Shown piece after piece: positions 2,200-52,430 of a stretch of 64,000 nt of DNA (position 1 is the stretch's first letter; each line of letters starts with the position of its first letter). Origin of the DNA: Dichetophora obliterata (taxonomy: Eukaryota; Arthropoda; Insecta; Diptera; Sciomyzidae); contig OY986435.1 of the NCBI GenBank assembly GCA_963920525.1, forward strand, positions 174,504,266-174,568,265, in the 5' to 3' direction. The notes under the pieces are model-generated. The model worked only from the letters and a program-made list of their open reading frames with translations, searched no databases and was not told the origin of the DNA. The translations under genes and the position numbers were made by a program.

Positions 2200-5129
2200 T
2201 TGCAAGAGAAATATATCCTTTGTACTAAATGCAATAAAAATAATTGTTTAATATGTATTTAAAAAACAGAGTTTATATGTAAAAAAATGTTTTCAATTAA
2301 GTTTTTAATAATAAATCTTTTATTTCAATTAAGTTGGAACTGGGGTTTTTCAGCAAAAAGCTCCAATTTTGTTATATGAGTCAAATTCGCTCAATTCAGT
2401 AAAAATTGGTATATAATCAACTCCCGTAAGTCTAGTGTTAATAATTGTTTACTCCAAATATCACAAACAAATATCAAGAATTTTGATTGAACTATGTATT
2501 TCCCTCGTTCTAAATGCAAAGCTTAAATAAGTAAAACAAACTAAGAACATACACACACGTAGCTTAACTAAACATGTATGCATCTTATCTAGCAATTAAT
2601 ATTATGCAATAATTTGTGAAAAAGTCAGTGTATTAACAACCATAAATAAATTTGGACATTCAAATATAAACAAGAGTTTTATTTTTTGAATTCCTGTTCA
2701 ATCGGGTTGAAAAGGTAAAAATATATTTTTTTTCCTGAATCTTAGATAGATTCCTAACTTAAAAGCTCAGTGTAAAATAACTTCTGGTATAATGGTATTG
2801 GAGGATACTGTGGTATAGGGTAATATCTCCAGTTCCGTGAAACTTATTTTGACGCAAAATTGCTAAAATTTGTGTAAACTCATAAAAAAGAGAATAGAGT
2901 TCAAGAAAATCAACGAAATTAATGGCACTACACTAATGGCGTCACTTTTTTCCACCACACTAACACCGGGTTAAATGTCATTTGAATGTCTTCCAGAAGA
3001 AGTTTATAAGGATGCCTCTTGAAAGAACTTCTTTATACGGCTATACTACTACAATTTAGACAATCTAGCGTGTTTGACAAGAAATTGTTAGTTATAGTGT
3101 ATATTTACTTTTGCTTTAAGGAATATGTAGTTTCTCTTACAAAAATAAAGCATTTTTAGATCGTCATTTTTACTGTTTTTCTTATAAAATAAGTTTGTAC
3201 TGGAATCCTTTTTCCCCTAAAATTTTTTGTGGTGATCTTGAAAACTGAACGCAACTTTTGAAACCTCTTTGAATACCACCTAAATTTTTCGATATGCCCT
3301 AATGAGCATGTTATCACAAATAACACTGTATATAAAAACATTTTAAAAATGTTGTTTCTTAAATAGACACAACGTTGAAAAGGTATTGAAACCTTTACCG
3401 TAATAAAATTGAAATATTACCGTAAGATGTAGCTTTTCTACATTTTATAAAAGTTTTGTAATTTTTGACACTTAGAAGTCAGATTTAATAGTTTAAATGT
3501 CTGACAAAAAGTTACATTAGACTGTTACGTTTAAACATTAGTACATTTGTATTAATTCCGTACATTAGTATATCAAGAGCGTCCGCAGAATTTGTTCAAG
3601 GGGGGTGGGGGCAAAGGCATGAAGGTGTCTATAATGTACATAAAGAAAATGTAACCTATATAATTCCATTTTCTAAGATTTTTGGTACTAATTTTGTTAT
3701 CATGATAACCCGGTTGACACACGCTTGTACACATAAAAAAATTATATTTATTTCAAAGATGGGGTTAAAATCTTTCTCGTATCATGCCCGAAACATTTTC
3801 AAATTACATTTTTTTCATGTAATTTCAAAAATATTTTTCTAAGCAAATTTTCTTAGTAATTGACTAAATTAGATAATGTGATGTCTCCTTTATTCTTAAA
3901 TAAAATCGCATAAATTAGTATTAAGCCCTAAAGTTTTTCTCTTTTCAAATAAGAATACAAAATTTTTCCAATATTTTTTTTTTTAAATAAAAAGACTAAG
4001 ACCAGCAAAATTTTCAAACCATTTTTTCCAGTTTTGGAGGCCTATAACTCATAAACGATTTGTGAGCGGCCTGAAATGTATCAGATTTAGACTTGGGAGG
4101 TAAAAATACATGACATCCGCAAAAATTAAGAATTAGAGTTGTCGCTATTCTCGAAATGTTTCCCGAATGGACATCAACGGACTTATTTCTTTTTTCAACA
4201 TGCATCAGTTCTAGCGGCATGCAAGTTACTAAAATCGAGTTTGGAAACATGCCTATTATATGAACTATTAAAAAAAATTATTTATAAAGAGGTACATACA
4301 TTAAAGATGGGTTTTGGAATCCATTCACTTTCTAAACATATTCCAGAACCTCCCTGTAAGGCTTGATTCTGCATCCTGGATGTTATATAAGCAAGTGACG
4401 CAAAAAAATCCAGAAAATTCTCAAAATGGGTGGACTAAGATAATGGGAATGTGAAAGCGTTTTCTTAAAAAGAATTTGCCATCAGATCTTTTTAAAAATC
4501 AGTGCATGATTTAAAATTAGCCTACTTTATTCAGAATCTGCTAATTTTTTCGCTTTTGAATTAGAAGCTTTTCCCTCGCCTTGATCACTGCATTTTTTTA
4601 AATTTAAATCTTGCATGATTGTTAGCAATTTTATTAAGCTTACGAAAAAACTATCCAAACTGGATTATCTTCATGACAGAAAAACAATTTTTTTAAGCCG
4701 ACTTTTGGGAAAGCATTTAGTTTTTTAAACTCATTTTATTTTGTTTTCTTCCTGTGTTTAATTACTTTAAAACATAAATTCACTTATCGTTCAAGTTCAT
4801 ACGCGTTATTGGCTTAAATGCCCTTACCATCTGTTTCTCTGAAGAAAGATCTTCGACTAATAGGGATATCATTACTTATCATTCCTCAATTTCTCGTAAG
4901 AATAACATCGTAATTTTTTCTATTTCATTCGTAGAATTTAATAATAGCTTCGTACTATTTTGTATTAGTTGAGTTTAAAAAATTTACAACCGAAATCTTT
5001 CAGTCTGGTTTTTGAACAATTACCGAATATAAAGAAATGTATGATTGCAAAGTGGCCGTAGTCTACTGAAAAAGTCCGTCCCCCGTAAGCTAAAAAACTG
5101 TGGTTCCAACTCCAGGTAAGATAGAATGT
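2200..5129. other. No gene seen
   Basis: AT-rich sequence with short spurious open frames only. A G-rich patch at 3598-3612 resembles the guanine run just inside some hAT-type ends, but no partner end was found. Confidence 0.5.
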
Positions 5130-10085: not shown

Positions 10086-10191
10086 AAGGGTGTTTTCTAT
10101 AGAGTGGTTCTACTTTGAGTTGGCAGCATTGCTTTATTTGACCACTTATTTAACAGCTGATAGTTGTTTTCTCTTCAATTTGCTTTGACAT

Positions 10192-12584: not shown

Positions 12585-12945
12585 AGTATTTATTATTTTG
12601 TTAATAGCATATAACATAACTTAATATTTTTGTTATATTTGGTATGTAAACAAATATACTCCAGTGAATTATTATAATAAATGTTATCAAATTATAATAT
12701 AAAAAAAAATGGTAGTTTTTTCCTATTGGGTACATTTGGGTATTTATTTGGTTAGTGCACATAGTTTCAAAGATAATGCAAAATAAACATAAGTCATTAT
12801 ACTGTACAAGTTTGAGTCAAATGTATTTTTATAAATATTTTTTAACTAGTTTTTGTCATTCACTTTTATATCAACGCATAATTTTTCCAAAGAATTTAAG
12901 ATTTATCTAAATAATAAATTTTTTATATAATTTTAATTTTAACTA

Positions 12946-15050
12946 TATAAGAACTGAGATTCTGGAGAAGGCACCAATGCACCCCTGTCAACACGCGTAT
13001 AGGGCGGGCAGGTCTACAGAATCTGCTCTATACCAGTTGGCAAGCAACGTCCAGTCAGCTTTCAAAAACAAAGAAACCGTACTCTGTGCCTTTCTAGACA
13101 TAGAGGGAGCCTTTAATAATACTTCTCACGAGGCTGTGAAGAAGTCTTTACACAAAAAAGGAGTAAATGATATGCTCAGCAGATGGATATGCCAAATGCT
13201 TAGCACTAGAACTGCAGAAACAAAAGTGGGAAACACCACTATAAGAATCAAAACAACAAAAGGCTGCCCACAAGGCGGAGTCCTTTCTCCATTGCTGTGG
13301 AGTCTTGTTGTGGACGAATTATTAACGATGCTAACCGAGAATGGCATAAAATGTCAGGGTTACGCAGACGACATCGCCTTAATAGCGAGAGGGAAGTTCG
13401 AGGATACACTCTGTAACCTGATACAGAGAGGACTGTCAGTAACAAAGGAGTGGTGCAACACAGTGGGATTAAGTATCAACCCAGCGAAAACCACCATAGT
13501 ACCTTTTACTAACAAAAGAAGCCTGCCAAACCTCCGAACAATGAGAATGGATGGCACTGAAATTCCCTTCAAAGGAGAAGTAAAGTATCTGGGACTTACA
13601 CTAGATTCAAAGCTTCTCTGGAGAAGACATGCAGAGGTAACTATAAACAAAGCAACGCGCGCACTCATGGTATGTAGGAGCCTGGCGGGGAAAAGCTGGG
13701 GTTGTAACCCAACAATTCTCCGCTGGATGTATACCATGATGGTGAGACCCATCCTCACCTATGGTGCAATAGCATGTGCTGAGAGAACCAAGCTAACCAC
13801 AATGAGGAATATGCTAACAAAGGTGCAGAGACTGGCCTGTGTATGCATCACAGGGGCCATGAGGACATGCCCTACAGCAGCACAAGAAGTAATTCTGGAC
13901 CTAACACCCTTACACCTTGTCATAGAGGGAGTAGCCAAGCGAACTCTGTTGTGCATTGCAAAAGAGGGGACAGGTTTAGGTAAAACTATCAGCAGTAGAG
14001 AGAAGGAGGATATTGCAAAGCTCACTCCCTACATCGATCTACCAAGAGACGATATAGTAAAAAGGTATAACTTCGAAAAACACTTCGGAATTAAGCTTAG
14101 TACCAAAAAAGAGTGGGACAGCGAGATGATATCGCAAGTCAAGAAACCACACAGTATAGCATGGTATACAGATGGGTCCAAGACATTAGAAGGTATAGGC
14201 GCAGGGGTGTACGGGCCAAGAACCAAGTACTTTGAACCTATGGTGACAACACCCAGTATCTTCCAAGCGGAAATCCTAGCAATACAGCTGTGTGCACAAT
14301 TCAATCTGGACCGTAAATACAAAGGTCAGGATATAGTCGTGATGTCAGACAGCCAAGCAGCAATCAAAGCATTAGTTTCCTATGAGATATCATCGAGAAT
14401 AACATGGGAATGCCTAACAAAACTCAACGAACTAGGAATACAGGGTAACGAAGAAGCCGATGGTCTAGCGCGACAGGGTGCAGCCACAAAATTTATAGGA
14501 CCAGAACCATTCTGCGGACTGAGCACACACACTTTAAAAGAAGAACTAAGAAGGGAGGAGAGGCATAAACGATCAAACCTTTGGAAAAGCCTCCCAAAGC
14601 TAAGACAATCCAAATTGCTCCTCAGAGATTTTAACACTCGGAGAGCAAAATTGTGCATAAGCTTAGGCAAACCGAATCTTAGGATTCTAACGGGGTTCCT
14701 TACAGGACACTGTAAACTCAAATACCACCTGATGAAATTGGGCATAGAGACCGATAGTAACTGCCGTTTCTGTGAAGAAGCAGAGGAGACTCCAATACAC
14801 CTACTTACAAACTGCGACGCCGTGGCTCGCAGACGTAAACTAGCACTGGGGAATTATGAGCTGAGTCTAGAGCAGGTTTCATCCCTTGAACCTAAGAATA
14901 TTCTCAAATTCATTAGAGAAATAGGGCTGGATGAAATTCTGTAATCCGCAAACCCAGCGGAGCTTTGAGAAGGAGGTACAATAGATCTCATTTAGGTCGC
15001 AGTATGCATCTCCACCACACAACATTAACATTAAATAATAAATTTTAAAT
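12946..15050 (+). mobile_element. 5'-truncated LOA/I-group non-LTR retrotransposon
   Basis: The unit comprises the open reading frame below plus about 105 bp of 3' untranslated sequence ending in an AT-rich tail near 15,050. Homology begins abruptly near 12,946, inside the reverse transcriptase. This is the usual 5' truncation of a LINE copy. Similar AAATAATAAATTTT strings lie at about 12,909 and 15,035, but the left one is not adjacent to the junction, so no target duplication is claimed. Confidence 0.8.
12977..14944 (+). CDS. LINE ORF2 fragment: reverse transcriptase + RNase H
   Basis: A 655-codon open frame encodes the C-terminal two thirds of a non-LTR retrotransposon polyprotein; homology starts upstream of this ATG, near 12,946. 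Visible reverse transcriptase motifs are HAYRAGRSTESAL (residues 6-18), FLDIEGAF (39-46, palm Asp), GCPQGGVLSP (96-105) and YADD (129-132, catalytic). An RNase H domain begins at YTDGS (about 396) with the SDSQAA Asp near 456 and GNEEAD near 489. The segment normally separating the last two, with its WVPGH-type block, is shortened: ITWECLTKLNELG runs straight into IQGNEEAD. A Cys-His cluster (CRFC...H...C, about 595-612) closes the protein. The endonuclease and ORF1 are absent. RNase H points to the LOA or I groups rather than Jockey. The complete absence of stops over 1.97 kb contrasts with the decayed LINEs elsewhere and suggests a young insertion. Confidence 0.9.
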   Translation: MHPCQHAYRAGRSTESALYQLASNVQSAFKNKETVLCAFLDIEGAFNNTSHEAVKKSLHKKGVNDMLSRWICQMLSTRTAETKVGNTTIRIKTTKGCPQGGVLSPLLWSLVVDELLTMLTENGIKCQGYADDIALIARGKFEDTLCNLIQRGLSVTKEWCNTVGLSINPAKTTIVPFTNKRSLPNLRTMRMDGTEIPFKGEVKYLGLTLDSKLLWRRHAEVTINKATRALMVCRSLAGKSWGCNPTILRWMYTMMVRPILTYGAIACAERTKLTTMRNMLTKVQRLACVCITGAMRTCPTAAQEVILDLTPLHLVIEGVAKRTLLCIAKEGTGLGKTISSREKEDIAKLTPYIDLPRDDIVKRYNFEKHFGIKLSTKKEWDSEMISQVKKPHSIAWYTDGSKTLEGIGAGVYGPRTKYFEPMVTTPSIFQAEILAIQLCAQFNLDRKYKGQDIVVMSDSQAAIKALVSYEISSRITWECLTKLNELGIQGNEEADGLARQGAATKFIGPEPFCGLSTHTLKEELRREERHKRSNLWKSLPKLRQSKLLLRDFNTRRAKLCISLGKPNLRILTGFLTGHCKLKYHLMKLGIETDSNCRFCEEAEETPIHLLTNCDAVARRRKLALGNYELSLEQVSSLEPKNILKFIREIGLDEIL

Positions 15051-43550: not shown

Positions 43551-44690
43551 TTTCAAAAACCAAAAATATTATTAATTATTATGAGTGCAGCTATGGCTGG
43601 CACCAGAAAAAAATATGTTAAATTTGCAGAGTGATGCGCTTTTGGAAATAAAGTCCTTAAAACAGCTTGTTCCAGCTTGATTCTAGTTCCAGCGATAGCC
43701 ACCACTGTTGTGAATAGCATATTAAATTTTCAGATGATTCGCCTAAATAGTTTTTGTTTTTTCTAGAACATCATGCCGAAAAAAGGAGTTTTGAGATAAA
43801 TGAGCATAAAGTGAAAATAAAGCTGTAGAAGTGAAAATAACGTCAGAAAGACTATACTTTTGAAATATCAAAATAAAAATCAATTTCATAAAAATTGTAG
43901 GTCTAAAACAATGCCGTTTTGATAAATATAATTTACAAATGATTAGCGATCCAAATATTTGCACAACACGATAAGTACAACTATTGATGTAATATTTGCT
44001 AGATGACATTACATCTATATTACATACGTTTGATATTTTAGATAGTAAAAACCAATAATTTCATTGACATCTTAAAAAAAAAGTAAAAATTTATGTAAAA
44101 TAATAATGTAAGGCAATAAAATTTACTGGTGGGAATATAATTGTTTTTAGTTAGCATTATGATATTTAAAATTTTTTCATTCAAAAATTTTTTAATTAAA
44201 AAAACCATTAAATTATTAAACTTATTAAATTGCGAAAAAGCTTCGCTTCTCTCTTGTGTCAAGTAATGCATCTGTTTTTTTCTAATTTTTAAAAATGTAC
44301 ACAAAAAAGGCCAAAATTAATTTCATTTCAATTTTGATCAGTTGAAAATCTATTCAACAGCTTAAAATAAAATCTAGGTATGTTTTATTTTGGCGTTTCA
44401 ACACCACACGGGCTTACTACATAGTTATAACAATTTGTGAAAAAACACTTTTAGGGCAATTCAACTTAATAAAAGCAAAAAAAAAAAAAACAATAACATA
44501 AAAATTTGCCTCCTTTATTCATAAAATAAGTCAAAAAGACAAAAATGTAATATTTTCTCAGTTGTATATTTTTATAACAAAAACTTTACCACAATCAAAA
44601 GATTTTGCCAGAAATGTTGTCATAGTTCATAAAAAATGAAGGTGCAAAAAAAAATGTTGTTATCCTAGGTAAAGCGGAAGAAATTAATAC
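43551..44690. other. No gene recognised
   Basis: AT-rich DNA leading to the 5' truncation point of the LINE. Confidence 0.4.
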
Positions 44691-47369
44691 ATGATTAAGA
44701 AAAAATTTATTTTTCTCATATGTAGCAGAATAGTATCTCTTAATTGCAATAATAGTATTATTGAACAAATTTGTGTAAATATTGAATTTTTAAATAGCCA
44801 CTCGGTATTTTTCTTTGTATCATATATTCCACCGAATAGTTTTTTAGATATTTATGAAAGTCATTTAAATAATATTGAGATTATTGCTAATAACTTAACA
44901 CAAAAGCAACAAATGATTGTAGTTGGAGATTTTAACCTTGGCAATATAACATGGATTGATAATGATAAAATTCTTTTACCTAGTAACATTTCATCAGAAA
45001 TAGAATCAACTGTTACAAGTTTTTATCTTTCAAAGAGTTTTCATCAGTTAAATAGTTTTAAAAATGATATTGGTAGAATATTGGATTTGGTCTTTACTAC
45101 TGATGAACTGAAAGCATTTTGCGAACTTTGTGTTAACCCAATTTCTAAAAATTCTGTGCATCATAAAGCGCTTTTATTTAATTTTGAGTTTTATGATTTT
45201 GACAGAAAAAATATTGAACCAATTGAAATATTAAATTTTTCCAAAGGGAATTTTTCAGCTTTAAATGGTTTTCTAGAATCTATTGTTTGGTCAATGTTTA
45301 ACTCTGAATCAAGTTCTGAGGTCATTTTTTCGTTTATTGCAACTAAATTTAAAATTGGTATTTCAAAATTCGTTCCGAAAATTCATCGATCAGAAAGAAC
45401 AAACATGCCTTGGTTTAATATCAGATTAAAAAATTTAAAAAATATCAAAAATAAAGCTTCCAAAAAATTTCAAAAAACAAATTGTGAGGCTGACAGATGT
45501 TTTTTTATTCGTATCAGAAAAGAATTTGATTTCCTCCATAAATTTTTATACAAACAATATATGTTAAATATAGAATCAAACCTTACAAAAAATCCGTCGG
45601 TTTTTTAGCATTTCATTAAAGACAAACAAAAACCAAATGGATTCCCTAGTGTAATGGAATATGAAGATTTTAAATCAAATAATGTTTTAGATAGTTGTAA
45701 CTTATTTTCAAAATACTTTCAAAATGTGTATACAAATACAAATACTTTCTCTAATTTTGATCGTCCTAATATTAAAAATATTGGAAACTTTGATTTATTA
45801 GAAGCTGATATAGAAGCAGCAATTTCAGATTTGAAAAACTCTTTTAAAATTGGAATGGATGGATTCCCACCTGCTTTCTTTAAACGTTGTTCCAAAAGTA
45901 TTATAAAACCTCTTTTGTTTCTGTACAAAGTATGCCTTAAAAATGGTGAATTTCTTGATAGCTGGAAGATATGTGCAATTGAATCTATTTTTAAATCAGG
46001 AAATCGTTGTGATGTAACTAATTATCGAGCTATCGTTAAGCAAGGCGTTTTTGCTAAAATATTTGACAATATACTTAAAAAAAAGTTATACACTCATATT
46101 CATAACGTAATAAGTAAATGTCAACATGGATTTTTACCAGGAAAGACAACTTGTTCGAACTTATTGTTGATTACAAATCGAATTTCAAAAGCAATGGAAC
46201 AACATTCTCAGTAAGATGTTATCTATACTGATTTTTCTAAAGCTTTCGATAAGATAGATCACAATATTTTACTCTATAAACTCCAAAAGTTCGGGATAAA
46301 ATATTCTCTATTAAAATTTTTTGGTAGTTATTTACGTGAAAGAAAATTATTTGTTCAAATAGATTCATATTGATCAAATTTTATTATAAATGCAACATCT
46401 GGTGTTCCACAAGGCTTCCATTGTGGAGCCTTACTCTTTTTGATTTTTATAAATGATCTACCACAATTTATTAAGCATTCGCAATGTCTTATGTTTGCAG
46501 ACGATGTTAAGCTATTTCTTAAAGTAGTTAATATTTCGGACTGCTTTAAGCTTCAAGACGATTTGACTAGTCTTCAAGGTTGGTGTAGTAGAAATAATCT
46601 TTATTTAAATAAAAATAAATGCAATTTGATTTCATTTACCATGAATTAAAATCCAGTTATTTTTAATTATAACTTAGATAGTTATTGTTTAAACCGTCAA
46701 TATGAAATAAAAGATTTAGGAGTTATATTTGATGTTAAATTAAAAATCAACGCTCATATAGATTTCATTACAGCAAAAGCTTATTCAATGTTAGGTTTTA
46801 TAAAAAGAAACACAACGGACTTTAGTGATCATTCATCTTTTAAAGCTTTGTATGTAGCATTTGTGCGAAGTAGACTGGATAACTGTTCAGTTGTATGGAA
46901 CCCGTATTATAATAATTCTTCAAATCGCATTGAACGAATTCAAAAACTTTTTACGATATACACATTTTCAAAAATGCAATGGTCAGATATTATGCCCTCT
47001 TACGTAGCCAGGCGCAAGCTGCTTGGTTTACAATCATTAGAGGATAGAAGATCATTTTTCTCTATAATGTTTGTGTATAAATTACTAAGTGGAAAATTAG
47101 TCTGTCCCGAACTATCTGACCTTTTTCAAAGTTATGTTGCTCCTAGGGATTTGAGAGTATACCGTCGGTTTTGTGAGACAACGCTCGCGACAAATTATGC
47201 ATATAATCCATAATCTCCAATTCTTAATTTTAATGTTGATGAAAACCGTTTTAGACTAAATTTATTTATACTCTTCAATTAATGGCATAATTTATTAAGT
47301 TATCTTTATAATAGTCTGTAAGATACATAATCAGTAGACTGAAATAAATAAATAAATAAATAAATAATA
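44691..47369 (+). pseudogene. Jockey-like LINE ORF2 relic (endonuclease + reverse transcriptase)
   Basis: A 5'-truncated element reads through most of ORF2 in one orientation with a few stops and frameshifts. The apurinic endonuclease part (44,715-45,200) shows FVSYIPPNS, VVGDFNLGNI and LDLVF. A linker follows with NMPWFN. The reverse transcriptase shows KSGNRCDVTNYRAI, CQHGFLPGKTTCSNLL, TDFSKAFDKIDH, SGVPQGFHCGALLF, FADDVKLF, and the C-terminal RLDNCSVVWNPYY region to about 47,213. Stops lie at about 45,609, 46,213 and 46,371. There is no RNase H. The 3' end is an (AAAT)n tail at 47,342-47,369. ORF1 and the N-terminal endonuclease are missing. Jockey group membership is from motif spacing and is fairly secure. 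Confidence 0.9.
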
Positions 47370-47835
47370 TATAATTATCAATTTCTTAGATGTATCACAG
47401 ATCGACCTGAAATAATAGTACTAATAGTATTCTGTAACGCCTATACAAAGAAAGGACATTTTCTTTTTTTGGCAGTTGGCTCCAGAAAAAAAAAATATTC
47501 AGTTTAAAAAAGCAATTAAGAAAAAATATATATGATATGATTTTAAAATATATTCATTAAGGCGCCTGAAATTGTATTTAGGAAAAAAAAGTTGTCCGGG
47601 TCACCTCCTGACAACAAACTTTGGTTTATTTTATAATGATTCCCAAAATATTGCAACTCTAGCTTTAGCCGTTCGTGAGCTGGAATGGTTTGAAATAACC
47701 TCTAAAAATCGCGTTTTTGATTAATACTATTTATACCACACTACCTTCGGTCAAAAAAATTGTCACAAATAGTGTAAATCGATGAAATACATAGTTTTGT
47801 TTTTTTATTTTTTTTTAAATCTGCCCACACACTTA

Positions 47836-48099
47836 CAGCCCTATTCTGGCAAATTAACAACTTGTTAACCAGTATTTTGAATATTTCTATGTGTTTGTTG
47901 TTTTCAAAACAATATTTAAAGCTCAAAAAACAAAATTTGTTAATGAAATTGTCAGTAACTGAAAAGCAGTTGACAATTTTTATCAATTTTTTTTATTTTT
48001 GAGCTTCAAATTTTGTTTTGAAATAAAAAAATTACAACAAACACATAGAAATATTCAAAATACTGGTTAAAAATTTGTTAATTTGCCAGAATAGGGCTG
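47836..48099. mobile_element. Harbinger-like palindromic MITE, 264 bp
   Basis: Starts CAGCCCTATTCTGGCAAATT and ends with its inverted copy. TTA lies at each side (47,833-47,835 and 48,100-48,102). Removing the insert and one TTA restores the CACACTTAGTTATTGAG sequence still intact in the opposite arm of the host element. A 3-bp TTA/TAA duplication is typical of PIF/Harbinger MITEs. Confidence 0.85.
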
Positions 48100-48536
48100 T
48101 TAGTTATTGAGTTATTTGCAGTGATTTTTTCAATTTTTTTTAATGCAGTTTTTATAAAAATATATATAACTTCCCCATTTATAGCCTGATTTACCATTCC
48201 GTGGTATCATTGGAAAGGTACTGAATGCTGCTTTTCATTTCTGTCGTTAATTAACCCTTATAAGCACTTTTATAAAAATGCATTTTATTTTATTTTTATT
48301 TTTTTGTGATGGCCTTTGCCTCAATTCCTGAATTTGTTCAAATATAAGAGAAATAAAATTAAATCATGTAGATAAAGAATGCATTTTTTAAATGGACTTT
48401 GGAATAAAGTATAGGAAAATACTTTATTGTACTTAGACAAAACAGCTAAGAGTAAATTTTACCACAGTTCTTATAAGTAGTCACTCATGACTTTTACATG
48501 ACTTTTAGGTTTGACAATGAGTTATATTATATTATA

Positions 48537-48546
48537 TTATATAAAT
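48537..48546 (+). promoter_or_regulatory. Candidate TATA box
   Basis: TTATATAAAT follows a run of TATAT repeats about 52 bp upstream of the ATG at 48,598. Placement is reasonable, but such words are common in DNA this AT-rich. Confidence 0.3.
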
Positions 48547-48597
48547 GTGAGTTTTTGAATTGTGATCGCTTAATTGTTCAAGTTATTCATAAAAAAA

Positions 48598-49384
48598 ATG
48601 CTTTTCGTTTCTCGCGAGTTAAATAAAAATCAATTGCCAACAAAAAGTGATGTAATAAAACATTTATTATTTTTGCGCGAAAAAAATAATAATCGGTCTT
48701 ACGGGCTATCTAATTATCATCAAAACATGCTAAATGATTTAAGCAAAATTTGGAAAAGAGCAGAAATTCCGGTTATATCGAAGACTGCGATCCGCAAAAA
48801 ACTTCAAAATTTAACGCTTTTATATGGGGATATCACAAAAAATCCATCGCATTACAATGCAAGCGAGTGGGCCGAACTATTTTCAATTTCTGTTTGCAAA
48901 TGTGCTCTAAAAATTAGAGTGTCTTGTAGTTGCCCAGGTGGAAAACAAATGCCATTGCATGTTTGGAATTTTTACCTTGATCAGTCGAGCCGAAGGTTGC
49001 TCACGCTAGATGAAGTTAATGTCCCCAAGATACAATTCAATTGTGATTCCTATAAAAATATGATAGATTGGAATGAATTAAGAGCTAATACAGAACTGCC
49101 ATGCATCCAGTTCTATACTCAACAATACTTATTAGAACTACACGACTCCAATGAAATTGTAAAAATTCCTGGTAATGAAAAGTTTTTAAAATAATTGTTA
49201 TGCTTTTCTTAACAAACAATTTTCAGAATTTCCATGTCATTCACAAAATACGGAACGTTTTGTACATGTGGTAAGCCAATCCTGCGTTTCGGTAATTGAT
49301 AAGAACAGACCTGCACATATTGCAAACAAGATTCAATCGCGCAAGCGTTACTGTAAAATTGAATCACGAAAAGATTTGGAATAA
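48598..49384 (+). CDS. Intact two-exon transposon-borne gene, 243 aa, unknown function
   Basis: Exon 1 is 48,598-49,171, from the first real ATG; the frame opens slightly earlier but without a Met. The intron is 49,172-49,226 (55 bp; GTAATG...TTTTCAG). Exon 2 is 49,227-49,384 ending TAA, with AATAAA overlapping the stop. The frame is kept and no stop interrupts 243 codons. The N-terminal part reads LPTKSDVIKHLLFLRE, then IWKRAEIPVISKTAIRKKL, a helical, basic region. The middle has a cysteine cluster (SVCKCALKIRVSCSCPGGK) followed by FYLDQSSRRLLTLDEVNVP. The junction gives IVKIPEFPCHSQNTERFVHV, then a short basic C-terminus (SRKRYCKIESRKDLE). By memory this LPT...IP / CxC / DQR / PCHTQxVER order recurs in uncharacterised multi-copy proteins of arthropods and cnidarians. 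No DDE triad, polymerase or nuclease signature is visible. It could be a DNA-binding accessory protein of a transposon or one half of a two-gene system. Confidence 0.75.
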
Positions 49385-49942
49385 AAAAAAAATTATGTCT
49401 TTGATAAAACTCTAAATTGTTTTTTTTTTATCTTTTAATTAGCGACTTAATAAATAACCACAAATTTTTTATCATGTTGATAAAAAATGCATTTTTATAA
49501 AAGTGCTTTTAAGGGTTAATTAACGACAGAAATGAAAAGCAGCATTCAGTACCTTTCCAATGATACCACGGAATGGTAAATCAGGCTATAAATGGGGAAG
49601 TTATATATATTTTTATAAAAACTGCATTAAAAAAAAATTGAAAAAATCACTGCAAATAACTCAATAACTAAGTGTGTGGGCAGATTTAAAAAAAATAAAA
49701 AAACAAAACTATGTATTTCATCGATTTACACTATTTGTGACAATTTTTTTGACCGAAGGTAGTGTGGTATAAATAGTATTAATCAAAAACGCGATTCTTA
49801 GAGGTTATTTCAAACCATTCCAGCTCACGAACGGCTAAAGCTAGAGTTGCAATATTTTGGGAATCATCATAAAATAAACCAAAGTTTGTTTTCAGGAGGT
49901 GACCCGGACCACTTTTTTTTTTTGAGGCGCCTTAATATTCAT

Positions 49943-50589: not shown

Positions 50590-52430
50590 GCGGTAGGTAT
50601 AATAGGATGAAGGAATTTGATTTAATTATTTAAATGTAGTATAATTTTCCGTTTTAAGACGTCTACCGAATCAGAAAAATTAATCATGTTGAAATTATTA
50701 TTGAAATCACTACACATACATCGTAAAGGTTCATGAAGAGCGTAATTAGAGTTGCACTGACTCAACTTGAAAAACAGAAAATGTCTAGTTCCTCTCCTTG
50801 GGATGTTAAAATTTAGAGCTGAGATGAGATATTCCGAATTAATCGCGACACGAAGTAATTTATATAGAAACATGACATTAAGCATCATTCTTCTGCTTCT
50901 TAGGGAAGGTAGTAAAATAATTTTAAGGCGTATTTCATACGATGGAAGCATAATATTGGGGTTCCAACGGCTATGACGTAAAGCAAAAAGTAAAAACTGT
51001 TTTTAAACGGATTCTATGGCGTCGATGTAGACATTATATTTTCCATATAACTGATGCATATTCAAGAATTGGTCTTACGAGAGAGGTATATAATAATTTA
51101 GTAGTAAAGTATATCACTGAATTCTTTAGCCCATCTTTTAATGAAACCAAGGACTCCTCTTGCCTTATTTATCACCATATTGACGTGGAGATTGAAGCGA
51201 AGTTTTGAATCCATAATAACACCAAGATCGAGAAAACTGGAAACTATTTCTAAGTTAGTGTTATTTATAATGTAATTTATGTTATTAGCAGATCTTCACG
51301 AGAATGTCATCTGCTTACATTTTTTTAAGTTGAGATTTAATATATTTAAGCTACATCAGTCCACAAGTCTATTTAGATCAGATTGTAAAAGATGCCGTTC
51401 TTCGGGTAATTTGTAACAAAGAAAAAGTTTCACGTCGTCAGCGTACATTAAGACGTTACAGTGTTTTATTACCGAAGGAAGATCATTAATGCATAGTAAA
51501 AACAAAACCGGTCCAAGATGACTGCCCTGAGGAACGCCAGAAGTGACCGAAATACTTTTTGAAAGAGAATTCTTATATAAAACCTTTTGAGTACGTCTAG
51601 ATAAATACGAATTTATCCAATTTAATAATGTGACAGGAAACCCAATAAGGTGGAGTTTTTTCAAAAGAAGATTATGATTAACACTGTCGAAAGCTTTGCT
51701 AAAGTCTATAAATAACATCAGTCTGCAGTCCCAAAGTAAAATCATTTATAACACGCGTAGTAAACTCTAAGAGGTTTGTTGTAGTGGACTTACCCTTCAG
51801 AAAACCATGTTGAAAGACAGAAATGGTGGAAGACACGGAGTGGGTTAATTGATCAGTTATGATTTTCTCAAATAACATAGGGATTGCACTTAATTTTGCA
51901 ATTCCTCGATAGTTAGAAAAATCTATCTTGGAGCCAGATTTATGAAGGGGTATAATATAAGAATCCTTTCATATAATAGGAAAATAACCACTATGCAAGG
52001 AAATATTAAAAATGTTGGCTAGAGGAGTACACAGGTTTGTAGCACATTGCTTTAAAATACAACTTGGAATTTTATCAGGGCTGGTCGTAAAGAAGATTTT
52101 GTCTGTCGAAGATAACACATAAAAATATTTGGGTCTATTACAGAAGTTTCAAAAGAGTTAATTGGCGAGAGAAAAGGATACACCGTGCTAGTATTAAATG
52201 GTATATCGGAGTAAGTTGATTTAAAGAAGTTTGCAAACATGTTAGAAATCACATTGTCACAAGATGATTCTTCCTGATTGAATTTCAAAAGGGGTGGAAA
52301 GCTGGAGGCTTTACGTTTTGAGTTGACAAAACTATAGAAAAATTTTGGATCATCTTTAAATTGAGATTTTATGTTAATTATATAAGCAGAATAGCATTGT
52401 TTATTTAATAGTTGGTATTGTATTAGATCA
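50590..52430 (-). pseudogene. Jockey-like LINE ORF2 relic (minus strand)
   Basis: From right to left, the fragment starts after the endonuclease (about 52,430; FANFFKSTYSD near 52,230). It continues into the reverse transcriptase with LFIDFSKAFDSVNHNLLLKK, SGVPQGSHLGPVLFLL, CINDLP and YADDVKLF (51,745-51,360), then a thumb region and the C-terminal MMLNVMFLYKLL and RRGTRHFLFFK block (50,951-50,622). Stops and frameshifts lie between the blocks. This family differs from the one at 44.7 kb: the motifs are similar but the surrounding residues are not. The 3' tail was not identified. Confidence 0.85.

Follow-up and report, generated by a model that had tools for sequence, protein, structure and literature searches.

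Layout of the element

The window analysed here is a stretch of 64,000 nucleotides from the genome of the fly Dichetophora obliterata (Diptera, Sciomyzidae; assembly GCA_963920525.1, contig OY986435.1, positions 174,504,266 to 174,568,265). It contains a transposon-like element at positions 47558–49934, with the termini TAAGGCGCC.../...GGCGCCTTA at 47558 and 49934, and within it an open two-exon frame (48598–49171 and 49227–49384) encoding a protein of 243 aa. The element is almost certainly a young, non-autonomous copy that has lost the interior of a hAT-like cut-and-paste DNA transposon. Its components, numbered within the window, are as follows.

47550–47557, no strand: left target-site duplication (TSD) ATATTCAT, read directly, an exact match to the right one
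47558–48286, + strand: left terminal inverted repeat (TIR), about 460 bp not counting the insert of 264 bp and the 3-bp duplication that accompanies it
47836–48099, no strand: nested palindromic insert of 264 bp inside the left arm, with TTA at either side
48598–49171, + strand: exon 1 of the fusion frame, comprising the transposase N-terminal domain (residues 1 to about 139), followed from about residue 140 by the C-terminal part
49013–49018, + strand: deletion junction, where 1411 bp of the parent are absent, with a 2-bp TT overlap containing one substitution, or a 2-nt filler
49172–49226, + strand: GT-AG intron of 55 bp, equivalent to the second intron of the parent gene
49227–49384, + strand: last exon, containing PCHSQNTER, in which the invariant glutamate survives as E201 (parental E649)
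49484–49934, − strand: right TIR, 451 bp
49935–49942, no strand: right TSD ATATTCAT, read directly, an exact match to the left one

The original prediction, made from the sequence alone, described inverted repeats of about 450 bp, an exact 8-bp target duplication and a 243-codon gene with a 55-bp intron, and all three proved correct; the palindromic insert in the left arm was absent from that description. The arms of this copy agree in two blocks, one of 253 bp with 98.0% identity and one of 188 bp with 98.9%. The N-terminal domain of the protein contains a cysteine cluster, CKC..CSC. A gene model of the fly Rhagoletis (P0019) has the same splice junction (..NIP|EF.CHSQNTER), and in L013, a parent copy, the last intron has the same length of 55 bp and lies in the identical position.

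The parent gene and the internal deletion

The middle of the element was used as the query in a search of the host genome, which yielded 602 candidates; the best 40 were scored, the window copy among them, and the 39 others were fetched and compared. Among these 40, the window copy alone matched the whole query, the others matching up to 49017. In six of seven copies read together, the remainder of the query was found about 1.4 kb downstream; in the seventh, which has a different deletion, the distance was about 0.3 kb. The 34 fetched copies with both ends are 2280–3585 bp long, mostly near 3514 bp, and the parent layout of about 3514 bp consists of two TIRs of about 450 bp flanking one three-exon gene. 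In L013, the introns of this gene are 67 and 55 bp long and the product has 691 aa. Relative to L013, 1411 bp are missing from the window copy, which has gained the insert (269 bp by alignment; 264 bp plus a 3-bp duplication by eye).

The deletion took residues ~140–588, and with them the two conserved aspartates and the first intron. The window protein is the first ~139 residues of the transposase joined in frame to the last ~103. Residues D266, D340, C369 and H372 (L013 numbering) are absent from it, and E649 is retained as E201; none of the five varies among the 62 family proteins aligned. PCHSQNTER thus carries the third acidic residue of the transposase. The absence of any DDE or other catalytic signature, as originally described, is therefore true of the two aspartates but not of this glutamate. 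Similarly, the description of the protein as not a transposase holds only insofar as the catalytic core has been lost; both of its ends belong to the 691-aa transposase. The original suggestion of a non-autonomous element is supported.

It had also been proposed that the element carries a conserved accessory gene or represents one half of a two-component system. In its favour is a spliced frame that lies intact between long arms, amid broken genes; the proposal is nevertheless extremely improbable. Arms of this kind mark a family that looks autonomous, and between them other copies encode a single uninterrupted transposase of 691 aa containing both ends of the window protein: in 12 of the 39 fetched copies the frame runs unbroken to the stop and the splice sites are canonical (two of these have small in-frame deletions, and L014 is counted even though its right end could not be located). 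The 243-codon frame, whose junction occurs once in the 1.31-Gb genome, lacks conservation. The original prediction had named these two outcomes, arms of an autonomous family and an unconserved frame, as grounds for its rejection. Homologues of about 750 aa hold both ends within one protein. In none of the copies read did a separate transposase gene lie next to a window-type frame within these arms; in L013, the long frames listed are the transposase exons. What looked like an unknown accessory gene is thereby explained by simple internal deletion from a parent that is now identified and, for this reason, there is no new two-component system to seek here.

Eight of the copies have deletions of at least 200 bp, and the window copy is the only one of them with an open frame. 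Among the other seven, the first stop lies at the deletion or just past it in four (L015, L018, L022 and L030), and in the remaining three the stop has other causes or the deletion is at the end of the gene. L015 and L030 (C2 and C4 of G000) have distinct internal deletions of ~1.09 and ~1.04 kb, respectively, with neither frame open.

Element ends and the nested insert

Both termini were located in 35 of the 40 copies examined, window copy included (L014, L015, L019, L040 and L047 being left out of the count), and 29 of these 35 have an exact 8-bp TSD, which is more than chance would give. The arms can be aligned over 436–446 bp in five copies.

The insert in the left arm begins with CAGCCCTATTCTGGC... 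and its outer arms of 71 nt are 96% complementary. No second copy of the palindrome was found in the window or among the 39 fetched copies, which points to a later, separate insertion. It looks like a foldback miniature inverted-repeat transposable element with 3-bp target sites and may be PIF/Harbinger-like.

Copy number, divergence and selection

A 43-mer from the last exon was found at 249 places in the genome and a 41-mer from the deleted catalytic region at 208 places, fragments included (up to three mismatches; no places for the reversed-pattern controls). The pairwise divergence of 34 of the 39 copies has a median of 0.9% (range 0.4–1.6%); L015, L019, L020, L022 and L047, being rearranged, truncated or poorly aligned, were omitted from this and from the substitution counts. 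More than 200 marker places, a divergence of about 1% and full frames in 12 of 39 copies suggest recent activity of the parent family.

The window copy has eight private changes over 2086 positions (0.4%) when compared with 38 of the 39 copies (without L047), or nine when compared with the 34, whose own values span 0.17–0.65%. Three of these changes fall within the 731 coding positions compared, one of them 3 nt from the junction; the two that can be classified are both non-synonymous. Variants among the 34 copies, counted as non-synonymous, synonymous and stop, number 195:46:15 against expected shares of 0.71:0.24:0.04. The ratio of non-synonymous to synonymous polymorphism (pN/pS) is 1.45, so the comparison among copies, which the original prediction had suggested as a check for selection, shows no visible constraint on single copies. 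The chance that three random changes introduce no stop is ~0.88, and about one random deletion in three should preserve the reading frame; the open frame of a young copy therefore needs no selection.

These values bear on the possibility that the copy is an inert relic, no longer transcribed or mobilised, in which the open frame only marks youth. Such a state is compatible with an internal deletion derivative and is quite conceivable, if tentative. It accords with a private divergence inside the range of the other copies, with the unconstrained variation and with a left end spaced out by the nested insert. It is opposed by the intact termini and TSD, by near-identical sister copies and by the full frames in 12 of 39, which together imply that a source of transposase may exist.

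A KP-like repressor is a further special case of an internally deleted copy: the fusion would be expressed, bind the element ends through its N-terminal domain or join transposase complexes, suppress transposition and be kept by selection. KP, the closest functional analogue, is a 207-aa repressor made by small P elements (PMC7776569), and PMC12393704 gives an interrupted transposase and a retained DNA-binding domain as the properties of P-element repressors. The first property is present in the window copy, and the second would be present only if its N-terminal domain binds DNA. The frame and splice sites are intact, the catalytic residues are gone with the N-terminal domain retained, and this domain, modelled alone, is predicted to be helical with confidence (mean predicted local distance difference test score, pLDDT, 88.9). 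Comparison of the domain with the PDB gave no significant structure match, which weighs against reading the confident model as proof of DNA binding. The fusion is also a single copy with no amplification, three private coding changes are too few to test constraint, and random changes would in most cases have spared the frame anyway. A repressor function is accordingly unlikely.

The window copy resembles KP and other internally deleted P elements in its 8-bp TSD, in keeping both ends and in its open frame; its short transposase-derived protein has 243 aa as against 207 aa in KP. It differs from KP in that the N and C termini are joined and in being single-copy.

The transposase family in other genomes

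The first protein search gave one relative, P0001, which aligned solely to the C-terminal ~100 residues of the window protein. A search with P0001 retrieved 92 proteins, and the subsequent alignment-based search, in which scoring was confined to the 7994 candidates with the most words in common, retrieved at least 1324. Among the best 120 listed of these, 93 have at least 700 aa. An N-terminal match to the window protein was found in 91 of 97 proteins longer than 600 aa; in all 39 shown of these 91, both the N terminus and the last ~100 residues align, and the ~450–470 residues between the two blocks are absent from the window protein.

The named sources are beetles, a moth, a butterfly, phylloxera, an aphid, a spider and tephritid flies, and the named members among the listed matches are labelled 'uncharacterized', 'hypothetical' or 'unnamed'. 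The signature of the family is D, D, CxxH, E, and its predicted fold is similar to that of Hermes. A scan of 16 family proteins gave no match to a Pfam transposase model (maximum E-value 10, with HMMER filters discarding most matches above ~0.1). These abundant hAT-like transposases, outside the reach of Pfam in the members scanned, are of more lasting value than the deleted copy itself.

The Rhagoletis pomonella protein P0019 (a partial gene model, 337 aa) has the N-terminal domain joined straight to the transposase middle and is apparently another internal-deletion fusion, or an annotation artefact. A piece of the transposase (46% over residues 240–320) is also present at 3657–3896 of JALONZ010000338.1, from an Anaerolineae metagenome-assembled genome, probably through eukaryotic contamination of the bin.

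Superfamily placement and origin of the copy

The 8-bp TSD is shared with hAT elements, and all 29 exact TSDs have the pattern nTnnnnAn, which is the Hermes-type target pattern according to PMC10368747. The structure model also predicts the RNase H-like DDE core with a large inserted helical domain that is typical of hAT transposases. P elements likewise have 8-bp TSDs; the P-element structures 6p5a and 6pe2 were matched by Foldseek at an E-value of 2.5e-4, weaker than Hermes, and no THAP domain or P-transposase profile was matched by Pfam in the 16 proteins. The family thus differs from P elements in its Hermes-like fold and the lack of a THAP match.

Several points weigh against a young hAT-like derivative. 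The TIRs of about 450 bp are far from the 10–25 bp reported for hAT elements and Hermes (PMC3942097). Neither the Pfam hAT dimerisation domain nor a BED zinc finger is among the hits of the 16 proteins, and the N-terminal domain has a CxC..CxC cluster. The Hermes match has 11% identity, low whole-chain template modelling scores (0.29 and 0.40) and a root-mean-square deviation of 14.2. With long TIRs and no Pfam match, it is the fold and the target site that support the superfamily label. The marker counts take in fragments, and the 39 copies, being the best-scoring of 602 candidates for a query from mid-element, are skewed to young copies in which the 5′ half of the gene is retained. Selection may also act on one copy.

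BuT2, a Drosophila element of the Tip group of hAT, has introns, an 8-bp TSD and short internal-deletion derivatives, as here; its gene, however, has five exons, its TIRs are 12 bp long and its short derivatives seem to have no coding portion (PMC3942097), unlike the window copy.

For the hAT-like deletion derivative, the 1411-bp loss most likely came about through faulty repair of a break inside the element, and the frame would have been left open by chance. As both ends are retained, the copy could move in trans, presumably mobilised by transposase from intact copies. The palindrome probably entered the left arm after the deletion, judging from its absence in other copies. The 243-aa product would be catalytically dead and, if made, would hold a presumed DNA-binding domain; repression of the KP kind is speculative. 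Real and tidy as the element is, it is an ordinary internal-deletion derivative whose frame happens to be open. It is improbable that the parent is a separate, recently active hAT-fold branch of insects and other arthropods, distinguished by ~450-bp TIRs, a CxC..CxC domain and no curated profile, that repeatedly yields N+C fusions as self-made KP-like repressors outside the P family.

Neighbouring features

Remains of non-LTR (long terminal repeat) retrotransposons, with matches to reverse transcriptase, RNase H and endonuclease, are located at 12911–14944, 44688–45608 and 51356–51745. Those at 44688–45608 are followed by further frames up to 47213, which have no Pfam match and adjoin the left side of the element. 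The frame at 10189–10644 matches the DUF4817 helix-turn-helix domain and is probably the N-terminal part of a transposase.
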